Positions 7,842-19,319 of a stretch of DNA of 26,978 nt are shown piece by piece. Numbering within the stretch: the stretch's first letter is position 1; each line of letters begins with the position of its first letter. Under the pieces are notes generated by a model. The model worked only from the letters and a program-made list of their open reading frames with translations. It did no database searches and was not told the origin of the DNA. The position numbers were made by a program, and so were the translations under genes. Source of the DNA: a virus. The DNA is taken from positions 1 through 26,978 of the IMG/VR virus record IMGVR_UViG_3300032562_000149; one strand, given 5' to 3'.

Positions 7842-9440
7842 CTATATCGTGCCAGCCTGCCCGGTCTCGGCGATGTAGGAGAAGCTGTCCGACCGGGCCA
7901 CGGTCAGTGTCATGATGTTCGTGGTCGGGTCCTGCTGGATGGACGTGATACGGCACCAGATCATGGTGTTCAGCCAGCCGGTGCACATCGTGACCGGGAT
8001 GTCGTCGCCGCACCCGAACGACCCGAACGGAGCGTTCGGGTGGTTCTTGATGACGACCGTCACCGGCGAGTTGATGTTCTGCATCGAGGCCAGCACCTTG
8101 TTCGCCTTGGCGGACATCCGTGCCTGGGTGGTGACCGTCTGGTCGTTGTACACGTAGGAACGGGCGATCCGGCCGGACAGCTGGCTGACGGTACTGGCGA
8201 TCTCAGCGGACCCGGACCCGGTGCCGAGGCCGATGACCTTATCGGCGAACTGGGCTCCGTTGCGTGTGACCTGGACCGGCTGGGTGATGTTCTCGCCTTC
8301 GGCGAACCGCAGTTCCGTCCGCCGTACGCCGAGGCGCGGCACGCCGAAGTTCATGGTGTGCGCGACGTCGGTCTTGGCGGTGTCCGTCCAGGTGTGCGTC
8401 TCGTACCAGTCGAACACGGCTTCCTGCTGGATGGCCTGGATCTCCTGGCCGCAGTCGGTGCTGTTCCACCACAGCAGCTGGAACGGGACCGGTGCCTCCG
8501 TGACGGTCGTGCCCTTGGCCGCGAACCCGGCGAGGCCGGGCTGGACGGTGATGTGCGTCGGGATGCCTGCGGTATTCGTGGCTATGATCACGATGTTGTA
8601 CGCGTTGCCGTTGATCAGTATGGTCTCTCCGGTGGTGAAGCCCTGCGGGTCATCGATGGCGAGGTTCTCCGCGCCCGCGTTCGCATCGACGGAGAGGTGC
8701 GTGAACGTCTGGACCTGGAGAACCGGTTCCTTGACCGAGTGGTTCTCCGTGAGCGGCGTGTTGATCACGATCTCGCCGACCGCGAGGCCGCCGAGCCCGG
8801 TGGGCACCTTGGCGATCGTGTAGCTGGTCCCGCCGTTGACCTGGATCCGCATGCCGGGCGTGAATCCCGAGGACTCGTAGACCCAGAATGACTCCGCCCC
8901 CGCGCTGGCCGGGCGGGAGATCTGCGAGGATGCCAGGTTGTCCACGTACGCGCCAACGTTCACGCCCGCCAGCTCGCTGCCGAGGCGGAGGCCGAGGTTG
9001 CCGTTGGGCTGGGACTGGAGCCAGGCCCAGATGTACCGCACGACGTTGAGGGCGTCGATGTTGTACTCGGTGTAGTTCGGTCCCTGGTAGATCATGCCGC
9101 TGGGGTAGCCGCCGAACCCGGTCGCGGTGATCGTCCACTGCGGCCCGTTGATCTGGGAAGACGTGAGGATGCCGCCCCACAGGATCTGGTTGTTCTCTTC
9201 CAGGTAGATGGCGTCGCGCCATTCCTCCAGCACCGGGTTGCCGGTGCTGTCCTTCATGTCGGAGCGGGGCGGCGCGAGTATGCAGGTAAATGTGTTGGGG
9301 TTGTTCAGGCTCCAGGTAATGGAAGGGCTGGTGATGCCCTGGACGTCCCGGTGGATCCACGCGCCGGTAATCAGGTTCTGGCAGTGCATGCGCGGCATCT
9401 GGGACTGGATGAACACCGGGCTGGCAGGGGCTAGCGTCAT
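7842..9440 (-). CDS. baseplate hub / minor tail protein (ReqiPepy6 Gp37-like)
   Basis: This 532-aa protein resembles the siphovirus ReqiPepy6 Gp37-like hub group, related in fold to T4 gp27 and phage Tal proteins. The N-terminal part has SITWSLNNPNTFTCILAPPRSDM, an EEWRDAIYLEENNQILWGGIL strand pair and FGGYPSGMIYQG. The C-terminal half carries AVFDWYETHTW and RRTELRFAEGENI. Inserted between them are two tandem beta modules (residues about 178-244 and 253-318), each starting AGAE and containing a GF.(P/T)G motif. It starts in an ATGA overlap with the 1015-aa tail gene. It should form the central tail tip that opens toward the cell envelope. Confidence 0.75.
   Translation of the reverse strand: MTLAPASPVFIQSQMPRMHCQNLITGAWIHRDVQGITSPSITWSLNNPNTFTCILAPPRSDMKDSTGNPVLEEWRDAIYLEENNQILWGGILTSSQINGPQWTITATGFGGYPSGMIYQGPNYTEYNIDALNVVRYIWAWLQSQPNGNLGLRLGSELAGVNVGAYVDNLASSQISRPASAGAESFWVYESSGFTPGMRIQVNGGTSYTIAKVPTGLGGLAVGEIVINTPLTENHSVKEPVLQVQTFTHLSVDANAGAENLAIDDPQGFTTGETILINGNAYNIVIIATNTAGIPTHITVQPGLAGFAAKGTTVTEAPVPFQLLWWNSTDCGQEIQAIQQEAVFDWYETHTWTDTAKTDVAHTMNFGVPRLGVRRTELRFAEGENITQPVQVTRNGAQFADKVIGLGTGSGSAEIASTVSQLSGRIARSYVYNDQTVTTQARMSAKANKVLASMQNINSPVTVVIKNHPNAPFGSFGCGDDIPVTMCTGWLNTMIWCRITSIQQDPTTNIMTLTVARSDSFSYIAETGQAGTI
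8487..8909 (-). repeat. two tandem beta modules in the hub protein
   Basis: Residues 178-244 and 253-318 of the hub align with each other: AGAE at the start, GFTPG or GFTTG about 12 residues later, then a strand pair ending in SYTIA or AYNIV, and a closing hydrophobic stretch. Protein-level identity is low but the order of landmarks is the same. A third copy is in the zinc-ribbon protein at 24671-25090. Confidence 0.55.
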
Positions 9441-12400
9441 GTGATCTGCTCCGCGACGGTGCCGAGGTAGGGGACGGCCGGGGCGGCGGGCGTGAACGTC
9501 ACGTTGACGAGACCGAACGCCGGGGTGCCGACGTTAGTGATGGTATAGACCTGGCCGGCGTTCATGAGCGCGTTGTACAGCGCCTCGTACACGAAGTCCC
9601 AGTAGAAGACGGTAGAGGCAGGCGGCGTGCCGGCCGCCGTCGCGAAGACGGCGGCCCCGGTCGCCCCGGCGGGCGGGTACGTCTGCGGCATGATGGTCAC
9701 GACCTGCGTCGTGGCCGCGAGCGCGCCGGATGACGCCAGGCTGGCGGAGATGAGACCGGAAGGCCCGTACCAGTTGATGCCGACCGAGACGCCGGCGGAC
9801 CAGGCGGCCGACGCGGTGACCGAGCCGGTCGCTATGTACTCGTAGCCTCCGCCGGGAAGCGTGATCGTCTCGGATATCATGCCCGGCTGGGACGTGGTGC
9901 CGTTAGGCGTGACCGAGCAGGAGTGCGTGCCGAGGTCGAGTGCCCACGGGTACAGGAGAGACTGGGCGATCACCGCGCCGCCTGTCGCGGTCCACGGCGT
10001 GGTTCCTGTCTCGAATGAGCAGTTCTGGTTGAGCCGGGCAACCGGGGCGGATATGCCGGAGAGCGGGATGGTGACCGGGTTGCCGGAGTACATCTGGAAC
10101 TGCTGCCCGGCGGTCACCCCGTAGTTCGCCACGTCGGCGGCCCGGAGCGTGATCACGTTCGTTGCCGGCCCGTCTTCCACGGCGATGAGCCCCCACGGGA
10201 GCGCTATCGTCGGTTTCACAGTGTAGATGAGCACGTCCCAGGCCCCGGCTGAGTCAGCGGGCGCGAGGCCGGGGAGCGTGACAGTTGTCGTGACAGCGCT
10301 GTAGAAGTCAGCGGCCCCGGCGGTATCTGTCATCGTTACCGGGATCAGGCCCGGACCGGCTGCTGTTTCAGCGGCCCCGGCCGTGTCCGTCATCGTGACC
10401 GAGGATGACCCGGTACCGCTGATTGCCAGCTTGTCGGCGGCCCCCGCCGCGTCCCCGGCCGTGATCCCGACAAGGTAGGCCAGGGTATCGGCAGCCGCGC
10501 CCTCGTCGGCCAGGATGGGCATCACGGCGGATATGACCAGGGTGTCAGCGGCCCCGGCGGTGTCTGCCTGTGGTACGGGTGACGCGCCGCCGGACTCAGA
10601 AGCGCTGTCCACTGCCCCCGCGACGTCGGACATAGCAGTGGCCCGGGTCGGCGTGACCAGGGTGTCTACGGCCCCGGCGGTATCGGACAGAGCGATCCCG
10701 CGTGCCGGGATGGTGTCGGCGGCCCCGGCCGCGTCTGCCAGCGGGGCGGTCACGATGACGGCGGGCGCTTCCACGGCTCCGCCGGCATCGGGGAGCGGTG
10801 CGATGACGGTGACGGCCAGGGTATCGGCCGCGCCCGCGACGTCGGCGGCGGTCGCGGTCACGGTAACCGGCAGGGCGTCGGCGGCCCCGGCCACATCTGC
10901 CGCCGGCACGGCGGCCGGGCTGGCCAGCGCGTCCACGGCTCCGGCCGCGTCCGCCTGGGTAACAGGGGTCACCGTCGCCTGCGCGACCGCCTCGTTATCC
11001 GCCGGAGGCAGGTAGAACGGTGTGACTTCAGGGCCTTCGGGAGCGCCCGGGAACCAGCCGGGACCGAAGACGAACGGACCCGGGGGCATGCCCGGGTCGG
11101 CGGCCATCACGGGAGAGAGCCCGGCCGCGATCGTGACGATCCCGGCCGTCCAGGCAGCGGTGCCGACGCTCGACTGCGCCCATGAGTACGTCTGGCCCTG
11201 GCTGCCCGCCGCGATCTGCACGCCGGACCACGCGTAGAAGCTGGGGTCGCTCAGGATGCTGGTCCACGGGTACCCCGGCGTGGCGGATGTAAGGAAGTAC
11301 CCGATCGCCGAGCCGACGATCAGCTCGTTCGGCTCGGTCGTCGCGCCGGCCGGCCCGGCGGACGGGTTGGCTGTGTTGTTGCCGGTCGCCAGCGCCTGTG
11401 CCGGCGTATCAAGGTACGGGTACGAGCCCAGGCCGTAGACCTCGTACGCCTTGAGATCGAAAGCCGTGCCGCTGACCGTGACGCTGACAGCGGTCGATCC
11501 GCCGGGAACGCCGGCCAGCACGTAGACGTACTGCTCGACCGTGCCGCCGCCGGCCACCGGCGACTGCGTGAACGGGAAGGACAGCAGGGTGACGGGAACG
11601 CCGCCGCCGTAGGCCGGTGCCGAGAACGAGATCGTCCCCGAGCTGGCGTACGCGCTCGGGATCAGGACGATGGCATTGCCGGCCGTCACCGCCAACGGGA
11701 AGTTGCCGGACGCGCCGGTGATCTGGGCGGCCTGGACGACCCGGATCCCGTTGTAGACCGGTGTCTCGACGTCGGTGCTGACCGGCCAGGGCTCGAACGG
11801 TACGCCGTTCGGCGTCGCGGGGGCCGCCGGGAACCACCCGGGCGGCATAGGTGCCGGGTCAACGTTCTGCGCGAAGACCGGCAGGAGGGTCTCGTCCGAC
11901 ATCAGGACGGCGATGCCGAGGTCCGAGCCGGAACCGGTGCCCCAGACCGGTTGCTGGGTAGCTGACGTGCAGTCCGGGTTGAACGCCAGCCCGTTGCTTT
12001 CCGGGTCGATGAAGTACGTGTAGCCCGGAGTGGACCCGGCGGCATAGGAAATGCCGAAGTAGCAGAAGCAGAAGTACAGCTCGCCGGGCGCGGCCGGGGT
12101 CAGCGCCGGAAAGAACGCCGTCGCACCGGAATCCAGGTTCCCCGAGACATCCAGGTGCCAGGTGCCGACAGTGGATGAGAACTCCTGCCCGGCGATCCGG
12201 AGATTGCCGGGCAGGGTCGCGGTGAAGCTCAGGGTCGCGGTCGATGACCCGGTGGCATAGGACGTGCCTGCCCAGACGACGGCGCAGCACGGGCTGTACG
12301 TACCGCCGAAAGACGGGGTGACCTGCTCCCAGGTACAGTTTCCCCCGCTGATCCCGTCGCAGTAGACGATGCTGGTGGACTCGCAGATGATCTCTACGAG

Positions 12401-12484
12401 GATCAGGTCACCGGTGTTGACCGGGCTGACGGTCAACGATGAGCTGGTCCCGGCGAACGGGCTGCCGACCGCCGTAAAGGTCAT
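9437..12484 (-). CDS. large minor tail protein with tandem AGA repeats
   Basis: The 1015-aa product has four parts. Residues 1-200 and about 243-455 are two related beta-sandwich domains, each followed by a proline-rich linker containing GWFP (216-219 and 476-479). Residues 512-750 are 13 repeats of D-x-A-G-A-x-D spaced 17-24 residues. About 815-965 looks like a CBM4/9-type jelly roll (NCSFETGTTPW...), and a short beta domain closes the protein. The N-terminal domain is unusually rich in cysteine. AGGGAGGG lies about 4 bases before the ATG. The likely role is a long, flexible receptor-binding or tail-tip fibre protein, given its place between small tail genes and the hub. Confidence 0.78.
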   Translation of the reverse strand: MTFTAVGSPFAGTSSSLTVSPVNTGDLILVEIICESTSIVYCDGISGGNCTWEQVTPSFGGTYSPCCAVVWAGTSYATGSSTATLSFTATLPGNLRIAGQEFSSTVGTWHLDVSGNLDSGATAFFPALTPAAPGELYFCFCYFGISYAAGSTPGYTYFIDPESNGLAFNPDCTSATQQPVWGTGSGSDLGIAVLMSDETLLPVFAQNVDPAPMPPGWFPAAPATPNGVPFEPWPVSTDVETPVYNGIRVVQAAQITGASGNFPLAVTAGNAIVLIPSAYASSGTISFSAPAYGGGVPVTLLSFPFTQSPVAGGGTVEQYVYVLAGVPGGSTAVSVTVSGTAFDLKAYEVYGLGSYPYLDTPAQALATGNNTANPSAGPAGATTEPNELIVGSAIGYFLTSATPGYPWTSILSDPSFYAWSGVQIAAGSQGQTYSWAQSSVGTAAWTAGIVTIAAGLSPVMAADPGMPPGPFVFGPGWFPGAPEGPEVTPFYLPPADNEAVAQATVTPVTQADAAGAVDALASPAAVPAADVAGAADALPVTVTATAADVAGAADTLAVTVIAPLPDAGGAVEAPAVIVTAPLADAAGAADTIPARGIALSDTAGAVDTLVTPTRATAMSDVAGAVDSASESGGASPVPQADTAGAADTLVISAVMPILADEGAAADTLAYLVGITAGDAAGAADKLAISGTGSSSVTMTDTAGAAETAAGPGLIPVTMTDTAGAADFYSAVTTTVTLPGLAPADSAGAWDVLIYTVKPTIALPWGLIAVEDGPATNVITLRAADVANYGVTAGQQFQMYSGNPVTIPLSGISAPVARLNQNCSFETGTTPWTATGGAVIAQSLLYPWALDLGTHSCSVTPNGTTSQPGMISETITLPGGGYEYIATGSVTASAAWSAGVSVGINWYGPSGLISASLASSGALAATTQVVTIMPQTYPPAGATGAAVFATAAGTPPASTVFYWDFVYEALYNALMNAGQVYTITNVGTPAFGLVNVTFTPAAPAVPYLGTVAEQIT
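10211..10954 (-). repeat. 13-copy DxAGAxD repeat tract
   Basis: Coding repeats inside the 1015-aa tail protein. The heptad D-x-A-G-A-x-D begins at residues 512, 530, 548, 566, 584, 601, 620, 641, 660, 678, 700, 720 and 744; the first four steps are exactly 18 residues (54 bases), later ones drift to 17-24. On the plus strand this appears as recurring GCGGCCCCGGC blocks. Two copies (residues about 697-706 and 717-726) share TMTDTAGAA, suggesting a recent duplication. Confidence 0.85.
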
Positions 12485-13451: not shown

Positions 13452-14156
13452 TCAGACCACCGTTCCTGAGCCGCTCGGGTAGCCGAACGAGATTGTTTCC
13501 GTGGCGGTCCAGGTCTGGCCGCTGGCCTTGGTGCCCATGCCCCCGGCCGGGACGCCCCGGTTGAAGAAGATGGTCGTGCCGCCGAGCCCGTTCAGGTACA
13601 CGCCCGAGGCGGTGTAGTTGTCGGTGCCGAACTCGTTCCACGCGAAGTTCGCGACACCGGTGCCGAACGTTGACGTGAACGTCAGGGTGGGCGGGGTCGA
13701 GCCGGTCGCGATGGTGGGCGAGGACGAGACCAGCTGGTAGTACGAGGTGGTCGATGACGAGCCGGTGTCACCCTGGAGATATGTCTGGGCGTAGCTGACG
13801 GCGGTGGATGACGTGCCGACGCCGATCCTGCCAGCCGACGCGGAGAACTTGGTGGTGATCGAGGTGCCCGCGACGCCGCCGAGCAACGCCACCCAGCCGC
13901 CCTGGACGACGTTGTTGCAGTTCTCCTGCGTCCAGGTACCGGAAGGCGTGACATGCAGTTCGCGGAACGCTTCCGGTGAGACGGTGAAGTTACCCCGGGT
14001 CATGATTCGTGACGGGTCCGGCCCGAGCAGTTTCTCCAGTGCCCACCGGGTCTGGTCCTCGTCCCACTTCTCGATCGTCATGCTGGTCTGGACCACCGCG
14101 TACTCGTGCATGGGTGAGTGCACCGCGACCTCGAACCGCTCGCTGGCGCTGTTCAT
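13452..14156 (-). CDS. minor tail protein, 234 aa
   Basis: I chose the ATG at 14156; an in-frame TTG at 14162 would be 5 bases from the AGGGAG box, against 11 for the ATG, and is a real alternative. The N-terminus is charged and helical (EKWDEDQTRWALEKLLG), probably a docking region. The remainder is a Gly/Ser/Thr-rich beta domain (NNVVQGGWVALLGG, SYAQTYLQGDTGSS, NFAWNEFGTDNYTASG, ending GQTWTATETISFGYPSG). That combination is common in actinophage virion-surface proteins. It sits among minor tail genes and shares its binding site with the upstream stop codon. Confidence 0.7.
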   Translation of the reverse strand: MNSASERFEVAVHSPMHEYAVVQTSMTIEKWDEDQTRWALEKLLGPDPSRIMTRGNFTVSPEAFRELHVTPSGTWTQENCNNVVQGGWVALLGGVAGTSITTKFSASAGRIGVGTSSTAVSYAQTYLQGDTGSSSTTSYYQLVSSSPTIATGSTPPTLTFTSTFGTGVANFAWNEFGTDNYTASGVYLNGLGGTTIFFNRGVPAGGMGTKASGQTWTATETISFGYPSGSGTVV

Positions 14157-14171
14157 GTCCAATGTGTCTCC

Positions 14172-15149
14172 CTAGATTGTCGCCGCGAGCTGCTGGAACT
14201 CTACTAGCAAAGCGATTTGCGATGACTCGTCCGTATAGTTGATGCCGGTCTGCACGCCGTCCGTGGTCTGCGCGAACTGGAGCGTCTGGGTGGTGCCGCG
14301 CAGCGACGGGCCGACCGACGCCTGTGCCGACCCGCAGATGGCGTGCCTGCCCGAGCCCTGCTGTGCGACGTTGACCGAGGTGAGCGTCTGCTGGAACGCG
14401 AGCGCGGGCGAGGTCACCGATGAGCCCAGCACCGGGTAGAGGAAGCCCCGCGCGTTCCCGTTCCCGGACGAGCTGCTGAAATACACGTCCGAGAGGGTCC
14501 AGGACAGTACTGCCGTGGTGCACCAGGCCGGGATGAACACCTGCCAGGACGCGCCGGGCGGCCAGGCGTGCGGGGTGGTGCTGACCGTCCAGTTGGTGGA
14601 CGGGTTGACGCCGCTCCAGGCGAACGCCTCCATGATGCGCTGCGGCGTGCAAACGTACCGCAGGTCATGGATGTAGCTCTGCTGGACGACTGACGTGCTG
14701 GCCGGCATGTCTACCCGGGCCAGCGGGATAGCCGAGAGCGTCGCGGGCGGCAGTGTTGCCCCGGCCGCGCAGGAGATCACGCGCGGGTAGATGATCTGCC
14801 CGGCGGCCGGGCCGGTCCACGGGCTGCCGCTCCAGGTCGGGTCTTCCGCTCGCGCGATCACCATGTAGGACTGCGCTGACCCGCCGGTCGCGGGTACCGT
14901 GCATGTCGTGTCGTTGCCGACGTTATACCCGTAGTAGCTGCCCTGGTACGAGGTTTCCGTGCCGGCGATGACGACCGCGCCGGTGGTGATGACGATGCCG
15001 CTGGTTGCGGGGCTGTTGGCGTTGACCTGGCAGTCCAGGTGCCCGACGACGCCTTCGCTGCCGATGGTGGCGCTGTTCAGCATGAGGCGGAGGAAGTTGC
15101 CGTTCTCGCTGTTACCATCTACAGCGTATGTGGCAGTCTGGAACGTCAC
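14172..15149 (-). CDS. minor tail / baseplate-periphery protein, 325 aa
   Basis: The gene starts with GTG in a GTGA overlap with the Dit-like gene. The N-terminal third has a pattern seen in many actinophage tail proteins: FLRLMLNSATIGSEGVVGHLD, then SGIVITTGAVVIAGTETSYQG and a QSYMVIARAEDP strand. After the PLARVDMPASTSVVQQSYIHDLRYVC hinge, residues from about 180 form a second beta-sandwich (WPPGASWQVFIPAW, LSWTLSDVYFSSSSGNGNARG). It is plausibly a fibre or peripheral baseplate protein with a tail-binding N-domain and a receptor-facing C-domain. Confidence 0.72.
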   Translation of the reverse strand: MTFQTATYAVDGNSENGNFLRLMLNSATIGSEGVVGHLDCQVNANSPATSGIVITTGAVVIAGTETSYQGSYYGYNVGNDTTCTVPATGGSAQSYMVIARAEDPTWSGSPWTGPAAGQIIYPRVISCAAGATLPPATLSAIPLARVDMPASTSVVQQSYIHDLRYVCTPQRIMEAFAWSGVNPSTNWTVSTTPHAWPPGASWQVFIPAWCTTAVLSWTLSDVYFSSSSGNGNARGFLYPVLGSSVTSPALAFQQTLTSVNVAQQGSGRHAICGSAQASVGPSLRGTTQTLQFAQTTDGVQTGINYTDESSQIALLVEFQQLAATI

Positions 15150-16079
15150 GATGATCCTCCGATGGCCAGGGTCGCGCTATACCAGCTCACGATGCACGTC
15201 GAGCTGCCGGTCGGGTCCTGCCCGCCGAGCCGGACCAGGGTCGCGCCGGGCTGGGCCTGCATCGAGATCAGCGCCGATCCGGTCAGCAGGCCCGCGATGC
15301 CGGTGGTCACTCCGTTGAGCGTGACTCCCCGGTTCCACGGCCTGGTATCGATGACCAGGATGTCGGTGTTCTTCAGGATTCCGTTGTACCCGGTTGATAC
15401 CGGTGTGTTGACATAGGTGAGGGTAGGGTAGCTGATCGGCCCGTGAAACGTGAATACCGGCCAGGTCGGCAGCGAGCCTGTGTTACTGATGGTGCTCTGC
15501 TGGTAGTAGTCGGTTTGCGAAAGCTGGTACGGCGGTGTGAGCGGCGGGGTCAGCGTGCCGAAGTAGCTCGGCACCATGGTCAGGGTGACCGAACTCTGGA
15601 CGTCCTCGTACCAGGTGTTGTCGGCGGCCTGGAACTGGGCGGTGAACGGGACGAGGCCGTTGAATACCTGGCCGTAGCTGGGCATGATCTTCCGGCCGCG
15701 CCCGTAGCAGCGCCGGGTGACGTCCGATCCCTGGTAGTAAGCGCGGAGTACCTGGTAGGAGTTGTCGAACAGGCGGACGGTGGGGTCATTCCACATCGCC
15801 GCGAGCGCGCTGTAGCTGTCCATCGCGGCGGCCCCGCCGCCCGGGTACGTATACGCCTGCCCGGTCTGGGTGACCACCATGCCGGGAAGCGTGTCAACGC
15901 CGAACAGCAGGCCGTCGTGCCCGACGACAGCCTGGTCCTGCACGTTGATGCTTCCGGTGTCGGTCTGGGTGTTGCTGATCTGGATGTTGTTCGCGACGTT
16001 GGGCGGCAGGCCGCCGTAGACGAACGCGTTCGGCGCGTTGTCGTGGCCGACCGAGTACTGGCCGGGCAAGAGCACGGGA

Positions 16080-16087
<8 letters not shown>
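15146..16087 (-). CDS. distal tail (Dit-like) protein
   Basis: The 313-aa protein directly follows the tape measure gene, overlapping it by 8 bases, the normal place for the distal tail protein that caps the tube and starts the baseplate. Supporting sequence: DGLLFGVDTLPGMVV, VRLFDNSYQVLRAYYQGSDVTRRCYGRGRKIMP and GLVPFTAQFQAADNTWYEDV, a pattern typical of Dit/phage tail N-domains. The C-terminal half is a second beta domain (PTWPVFTFHGPISYPTLTYVN), similar to the galectin-like half of Dit. Inference from order and pattern, not from structure. Confidence 0.75.

Positions 16088-19319
<3,232 letters not shown>

Follow-up and report, generated by a model that had tools for sequence, protein, structure and literature searches.

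An 18-residue acidic-turn repeat in a virus tail protein and its relatives in viral contigs and isolated mycobacteriophages

The repeat protein and its tract

We examined a stretch of 26,978 bases, here referred to as the window, which is the whole of IMG/VR virus record IMGVR_UViG_3300032562_000149 (67% G+C, with no end repeats found in the record). A siphovirus tail module in the window encodes a protein with a long tract of acidic-turn repeats (Table 1). Minor tail proteins are encoded between the Dit-like gene and the repeat gene, and beyond the phrog_1885 gene lies one whose product matches fn3 weakly. In the tape measure, the C-terminal stretch 908–987 matches phrog_12661, which is labelled transglycosylase.

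Table 1. Positions of the tail genes, the repeat tract and its motifs in the window (for motifs, the residue number is in brackets)
Feature	Position	Strand	Evidence
Tape measure	16080-19319		phrog_305
Dit-like protein	15146-16087		phrog_33
Conserved upstream neighbour	13452..14162	-	tblastn homologue in 18/61 loci of the first DNA pattern
Repeat-protein gene, 1015 aa, putative tail-tip accessory protein	9437..12484	-	ORF; sits among tail genes
N-terminal region, residues 1-480	11045..12484	-	tblastn, 31-38% identity
Repeat tract, 13 units, residues 506-755	10220..10969	-	motif scan, shuffles, autocorrelation, profile A2
Motif 1 DAAGAVD (512)	10931..10951	-	motif scan
Motif 2 DVAGAAD (530)	10877..10897	-	motif scan
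Motif 3 DVAGAAD (548)	10823..10843	-	motif scan
Motif 4 DAGGAVE (566)	10769..10789	-	motif scan
Motif 5 DAAGAAD (584)	10715..10735	-	motif scan
Motif 6 DTAGAVD (601)	10664..10684	-	motif scan
Motif 7 DVAGAVD (620)	10607..10627	-	motif scan
Motif 8 DTAGAAD (641)	10544..10564	-	motif scan
Motif 9 DEGAAAD (660)	10487..10507	-	motif scan
Motif 10 DAAGAAD (678)	10433..10453	-	motif scan
Motif 11 DTAGAAE (700)	10367..10387	-	motif scan
Motif 12 DTAGAAD (720)	10307..10327	-	motif scan
Motif 13 DSAGAWD (744)	10235..10255	-	motif scan
C-terminal region, weak CBM_4_9 resemblance, residues 820-892	9809..10027	-	Pfam
Downstream phrog_1885 minor tail protein	7842..9440	-	phrog_1885, E 2.8e-52

The motif scan detected 13 acidic-turn motifs within residues 512–750, of which 10 are exact copies of DxAGAxD and three (motifs 4, 9 and 11) are inexact; acidic residues stand at positions 0 and +6 around small residues in all 13. 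The relaxed motif, observed 13 times, appeared at most 3 times (mean 0.14) in 10,000 shuffles of the whole protein and at most 4 times (mean 0.27) in 10,000 shuffles of the tract alone. Successive motifs are spaced by 18, 18, 18, 18, 17, 19, 21, 19, 18, 22, 20 and 24 residues, and autocorrelation showed maxima at lag 18 (0.249) and lag 36 (0.218) with no peak at lag 9 (0.098). The tract is rich in A, T, V, D and G, with alanine at 76 of 275 residues.

Thus, the repeat of 13 copies of about 18 residues in the original prediction was recovered, as were its extent of about a quarter of the protein and its phasing, exact in the first five copies and looser afterwards. The prediction had also noted a longer match between two copies; copies 11 and 12 do share VTMTDTAGAA, but their DNA agrees at only 34 of 54 bases. 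As for the domains it had placed around the tract, the carbohydrate-binding-like C-terminus retained a CBM_4_9 match with an E-value of 0.0088, whose 16.8 bits are below the 25.9 cut-off. The supposed duplication of N-terminal beta-sandwich domains was not borne out, since the best blastp match between the parts was a PGWFP linker (E 0.096) and profile-profile comparison gave a probability of 17.7% (pairwise E 0.0014, 64 columns).

The repeat family in viral contigs and isolated phages

Viral contigs were searched with two DNA patterns, the first for three acidic turns 18 residues apart and the second for the DTGxGxD form of the unit. The first retrieved 61 stretches, 36 of them with repeat-bearing ORFs, and the second retrieved 51, of which 41 were new and 37 of these carried the repeat. 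Altogether, the unit was present in ORFs of 73 of the 102 viral-contig stretches, here given L numbers; 25 of the 61 and 4 of the 41 were dropped as other sequence by regular expression and by eye. Together with the window and four isolate proteins, the 73 loci gave 78 proteins, and 64 after removal of near-copies, some rows being from the same virus.

Among 646 spacings (up to 30 residues) in these 64 proteins, 18 was the most frequent (438), followed by 19 (81), 20 (52), 16 (31) and 17 (15). As the patterns force acidic residues, we inspected 38 units whose place was set solely by the middle of a 36-residue gap. All 38 have an acidic residue 0 (24 E and 14 D), and 30 have an acidic residue 6. 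Across 778 units, hydrophobic residues occupy 70% and 68% of positions -4 and -2 and 65% and 63% of positions +8 and +10, and only 7–20% of the odd positions from -7 to +9. At -6 and +12, where a solenoid would have core residues, they reach only 37% and 34%, which counts against that fold, and a further third is alanine. The unit therefore consists of two short alternating-hydrophobic stretches around a small-residue turn (AGA or GxG) that is bracketed by two acidic residues, and it recurs in phage proteins with varied N- and C-terminal domains.

Profile A2, built from 12 metagenomic rows with the window left out, matched all six records that it was given: Rhodococcus phage REQ1 (3e-18), prophi91-4 (1.5e-15), Muddy (1e-14), IdentityCrisis (7e-14), the window (4e-13) and Gordonia phage BetterKatz (1.7e-5), the last of which is L105, also a repeat carrier. 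In the window the matches lie at 10601–10978 (E 4e-13) and 10226–10696 (E 3e-9). A 12-row profile without the window scored the window tract at 62.9 bits. In 500 shuffles with every D kept in place, 79 were reported with a best score of 26.6 bits; the turn A/G were also moved in these, so they do not isolate the flanks alone. No match was obtained with 500 full shuffles of the tract.

With tblastn, L082 retrieved 111 phage records, including Muddy, REQ1, IdentityCrisis and prophi91-4, in all four of which the unit lies in a minor tail protein, and the Muddy N-terminus with its tract retrieved 206, of which 190 are named Mycobacterium. The L082 query also matched a pectate lyase of Bacillus phage SP-15 at 24% identity. 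Judged by sequence, the window repeat is a member of a widespread, unnamed virus repeat family common to isolated mycobacteriophage tail proteins. Many actinophages have the repeat in their tail proteins, among them Muddy, which is reportedly called therapeutically useful in a paper title, and none of the Pfam or NCBIfam models tried describes the unit: no model scored above cut-off on the tract among the 28 repeat proteins scanned with Pfam and the 6 scanned with NCBIfam. Literature searches aimed at the 18-residue unit returned no description in the text available, and the accessible parts of the Douge paper (PMC13033339) and of the Claus/Corndog/Mysterious preprint (PMC13252515) do not describe it.

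Muddy gp25, IdentityCrisis gp21 and prophi91-4 gp73 have the same 18-residue unit with a D-x-[GA]-x-[GA]-x-[DE] turn and are encoded in tail operons, and profile A2 matches these mycobacteriophage minor tail proteins and the window tract alike. The Muddy gp25-like proteins have about seven units, with the gene downstream of a large minor tail gene, whereas the 13 units of the window tract are rich in alanine, its flanking domains are different and its gene precedes the phrog_1885 gene. Above the Pfam cut-off, the flanks gave Laminin_G_3 in L002, DUF7483 in L025 and Gly_rich_2 (PF21722) in four proteins (Muddy gp25, IdentityCrisis gp21, REQ1 and L105); Gly_rich_2 stands behind the tract in Muddy and IdentityCrisis and is absent from the window protein. 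Among PHROG profiles, phrog_416 spans the tracts of Muddy gp25 (whole protein, E 7e-82) and IdentityCrisis gp21, whereas the window repeat protein had no PHROG match at E 0.1. In addition, phrog_1696, labelled major tail protein, matched eight stretches in L082, and phrog_12240 matched L015 and L006 weakly.

Several searches returned no relatives. A profile search of 396 genomes, a sample of one actinobacterial phylum, gave no match at E 1e-6; in larger genomes this covers only six scored candidates, and tracts as weak as that of BetterKatz would be missed at this threshold, so that some prophages may still carry the repeat. The strict pattern retrieved 15 stretches from genome contigs, none with the repeat by regular expression and by eye, and a few of these were other low-complexity sequence with an 18-residue spacing. 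Searching phages with the whole window protein or with a tract by tblastn gave nothing, likely because of the low-complexity filter; likewise, no phage match was found with megablast for bases 1–25000, nor any relatives in related-locus searches that started from the repeat protein or from the product of the gene downstream. Among PDB sequences the tracts matched a single entry, the LIM-domain protein 9e5c_0q (E down to 3e-19), which was rejected as a composition effect, as it is alanine-rich, lacks the D/G turn and has a bias about equal to its score.

By tblastn, residues 1–195 of the window repeat protein match L005, L033 and L044, and residues 242–359 match L015 and L059. Homologues of the phrog_1885 protein were found in 7 of the 61 loci of the first pattern. 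In all four loci with both flanks (L050, L055, L032 and L045), the repeat gene lies between the homologue of the 13452–14162 gene and that of the phrog_1885 gene. In case of L012, the phrog_1885 homologue (residues 130–567) is fused directly behind the tract, which has four motifs between residues 34 and 95, and in L005 the tract precedes, in one ORF, a part that resembles Sipho_Gp37 weakly (E 0.018, which falls short of the cut-off). The neighbour order, the L012 fusion and the L005 architecture thus indicate that the tract adjoins the tail hub. The far ends of the repeat proteins vary, with lectin-like, Gly-rich or unassigned domains.

Copy number and its evolution

We counted motifs in 18 ORFs of the window's tail type: that of the window itself, that of L013, and those of 16 loci from among the 18 in which the upstream neighbour has a homologue. 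Counts range from 9 to 30 in the 12 ORFs that are complete, the window ORF among them, and from 7 to 31 in the six that run off their contigs; in L082, 43 matches to a looser motif were found. A constant copy number and a model with no regular repeat would have spoken against the original prediction; the family gave counts of 9 to 30 and two regular AlphaFold2 models (see below).

Whole-unit gaps were observed in the tract in 8 of 16 homologous pairs aligned. Those of L082 and L103, at 77% identity, measure 93, 111, 19, 19 and 76 residues, those of L048/L050 20 and 36, and those of L005/L061 16 and 19; L005/L036, L097/L110, L013/L028, L013/L045 and L032/L050 also have them. No whole-unit gap was present in the other eight, which are the close pairs L005/L033 (82%), L008/L054 (89%), L081/L111 (94%) and L079/L086 (100%) and, at 55–62%, L097/L107, L107/L110, L036/L061 and L005/L044 (cut by the contig end). 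Because the aligner keeps the repeats in phase, individual gap lengths do not count as independent evidence of length change; what does count is how far the tracts differ in length once their flanks are aligned. The suggestion that the tract grows and shrinks is thus upheld in half of the pairs, but the process is neither general nor fast, given the eight gapless pairs and the far-diverged DNA of the window copies.

Twelve isolate proteins were also compared, of which four were obtained through L082, seven were taken from the spread of the Muddy-query matches and the last was that of BetterKatz. All have 341–359 residues, and in 11 of the 12 the first motif is at 42–45. The regular expression found 4–8 units, and with degenerate copies most look like seven by eye. 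From these sequences, the unit count in the mycobacteriophage (Muddy-like) branch looks fixed near seven.

Predicted structure and possible role of the tract

AlphaFold2 modelled the window tract, aligned with 24 other rows, as a monomer with pLDDT 70.0 and pTM 0.58 (five models 62–70), and the divergent L007 tract, with 11 other rows, as a monomer with pLDDT 76.3 and pTM 0.68 (70–76). Most units of both models have a strand, a short turn and a strand. Foldseek found nothing below E 0.001 with either model, and against viral models the best match was an Acidovorax phage protein (E 0.32, TM 0.51). In a structural second look, the window model aligned with parallel beta-helices, the best being the AlgE6 A-module (Z 15.6, rmsd 4.5, 251 aligned). 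The L007 model was aligned with CsgA (Z 19.9, rmsd 9.8, 295 aligned), Vag8 (Z 17.5, rmsd 4.0) and the RTX S-layer protein RsaA (Z 14.6, rmsd 8.5, 334 aligned). An unlike fold, the leucine-rich-repeat protein YopM, also scored with the L007 model (Z 13.4, rmsd 13.5), and for repeats, Z values below about 13 may reflect no more than a shared arrangement.

According to the accessible text of Pratt et al. (PMC11795689), the beta-solenoids that AlphaFold2 yields for perfect repeats can be confident and yet unrealistic, one sign of which is the stacking of charges, while four diverged natural families agreed across methods. We hold a solenoid at moderate confidence because its acidic residues would stack, though the tracts are diverged; metal binding would resolve the stacked acidic charge.

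If so, each unit would be one rung of a two-strand beta-solenoid, with the conserved turns stacked along one edge and the variable loops along the opposite one; such an arrangement would account for the restriction of length variation to the stretches between motifs. The rod would keep the terminal, glycan-binding-like domains at a distance from the tail hub. We somewhat favour the reading of the tract as a long protein spacer within an accessory protein of the baseplate. Read most simply, the tract is likely a spacer that separates the hub from surface-binding domains, and from its position and the domain architecture it is plausible that the tract sets the reach of the putative receptor-binding end. 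With a spacer built rung by rung, tract length would be a countable variable for phage tail reach, and the variable and fixed branches would make the reach idea testable.

Curli CsgA and other two-strand beta-solenoids also have two short strands per repeat, as in the models of the unit, but the CsgA alignment has 4% identity besides its high rmsd, and the window unit is of 18 residues with an acidic turn. The RTX calcium beta-roll (HemolysinCabind, PF00353) is built on the nonapeptide GGxGxDxUx, and one full turn of the roll takes 18 residues. The DTGxGxDxL form of the unit resembles this nonapeptide and the L007 model aligns with RsaA, but the motif of the unit comes once per 18 residues and not once per 9. 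PF00353 was matched in none of the seven repeat records, window included, even at E 10, and the control matched in 4 of 14 genomes. L057, with DSGxGxD units, matched NF046115, a calcium-binding repeat of NCBIfam, with E 1.3e-14 and 54 bits against a cut-off of 625. Both acidic residues share the parity of the hydrophobics and, in a strand, would face the core side, a pattern that suggests one-edge, RTX-like metal binding. Speculatively, the stacked acidic pairs may bind calcium. It is possible, though we think it unlikely, that the tract is related to the RTX beta-roll or mimics it, in a form specific to viruses, in which one acidic turn per 18-residue rung would form a single-edge calcium ladder; actinophage tail-tip stalks would then stiffen on extracellular calcium, and their length would evolve by whole rungs in some lineages and be held near seven in the mycobacteriophage lineage.

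That the repeat is instead a DNA-level feature, maintained for recombination or imposed by an antisense ORF, is hardly credible. A 166-aa ORF (10515–11015, plus strand) does run antisense across the tract, probably as a by-product of G+C-rich repeated codons. On the other hand, Tandem Repeats Finder reported no 54-nt array in the tract, only a 12-nt unit in 2.1 copies (10437–10461), and the longest exact DNA match within the tract is 18 nt (copies 8 and 12). The window units share on average 28–30 of 54 bases, with third codon positions agreeing at 0.54, slightly above the 0.46 expected from codon use, so that the copies are old and are kept as protein. The conservation of the repeat as protein across diverged phages and the dS of 0.8–1.0 in diverged pairs also speak against a DNA-level feature. 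Within the tract, dN was lower than dS in all five pairs tried (ratio about 0.15 to 0.46), so that its substitutions are under purifying selection.

This selection also argues against a flexible, mostly disordered acidic and alanine-rich linker in which the motif is a low-complexity leftover, as do the acidic residues of the position-located units (38/38 and 30/38), the far lower scores of the D-preserving shuffles, though the turn A/G also moved in these, and the L007 tract, which has bulky residues and keeps the period. We consider such a linker quite improbable, although the composition of the tract, the loose spacing of its later copies and the bias of AlphaFold2 to solenoids (PMC11795689, in its accessible text) agree with it. 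A trimeric fibre shaft, in which three chains would wind around each other in a stalk similar to a triple beta-spiral, each unit giving one strand-turn-strand, as known from the shafts of adenovirus and other fibres, is a conceivable but not very likely reading. Trimers are common among phage stalks, alternating hydrophobics with a tight turn fit either fold, and the models here are of monomers only; the regular monomer models of two divergent tracts count against the trimer. The central fibre of Douge, gp20, is a trimer in the part of its description available (PMC13033339).

Tandem repeats in phage proteins also include the BACON-domain repeats of crAss-like phages, studied as evolving in the accessible part of that work (PMC6949934); the repeats there are whole domains, whereas here they are 18-residue units. 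Repeats of other kinds were seen beside those described here. LeBron gp21 (L131:6712-7887), encoded beside gp20, has no acidic-turn motif, and its middle looks by eye like an alternating repeat of another kind, suggestive of an exchange of the spacer. The C-termini of L006, L057, L008 and L011 have short secondary repeats of other kinds, such as DRTGPT, SRSQGGAAG and LKRWDG.
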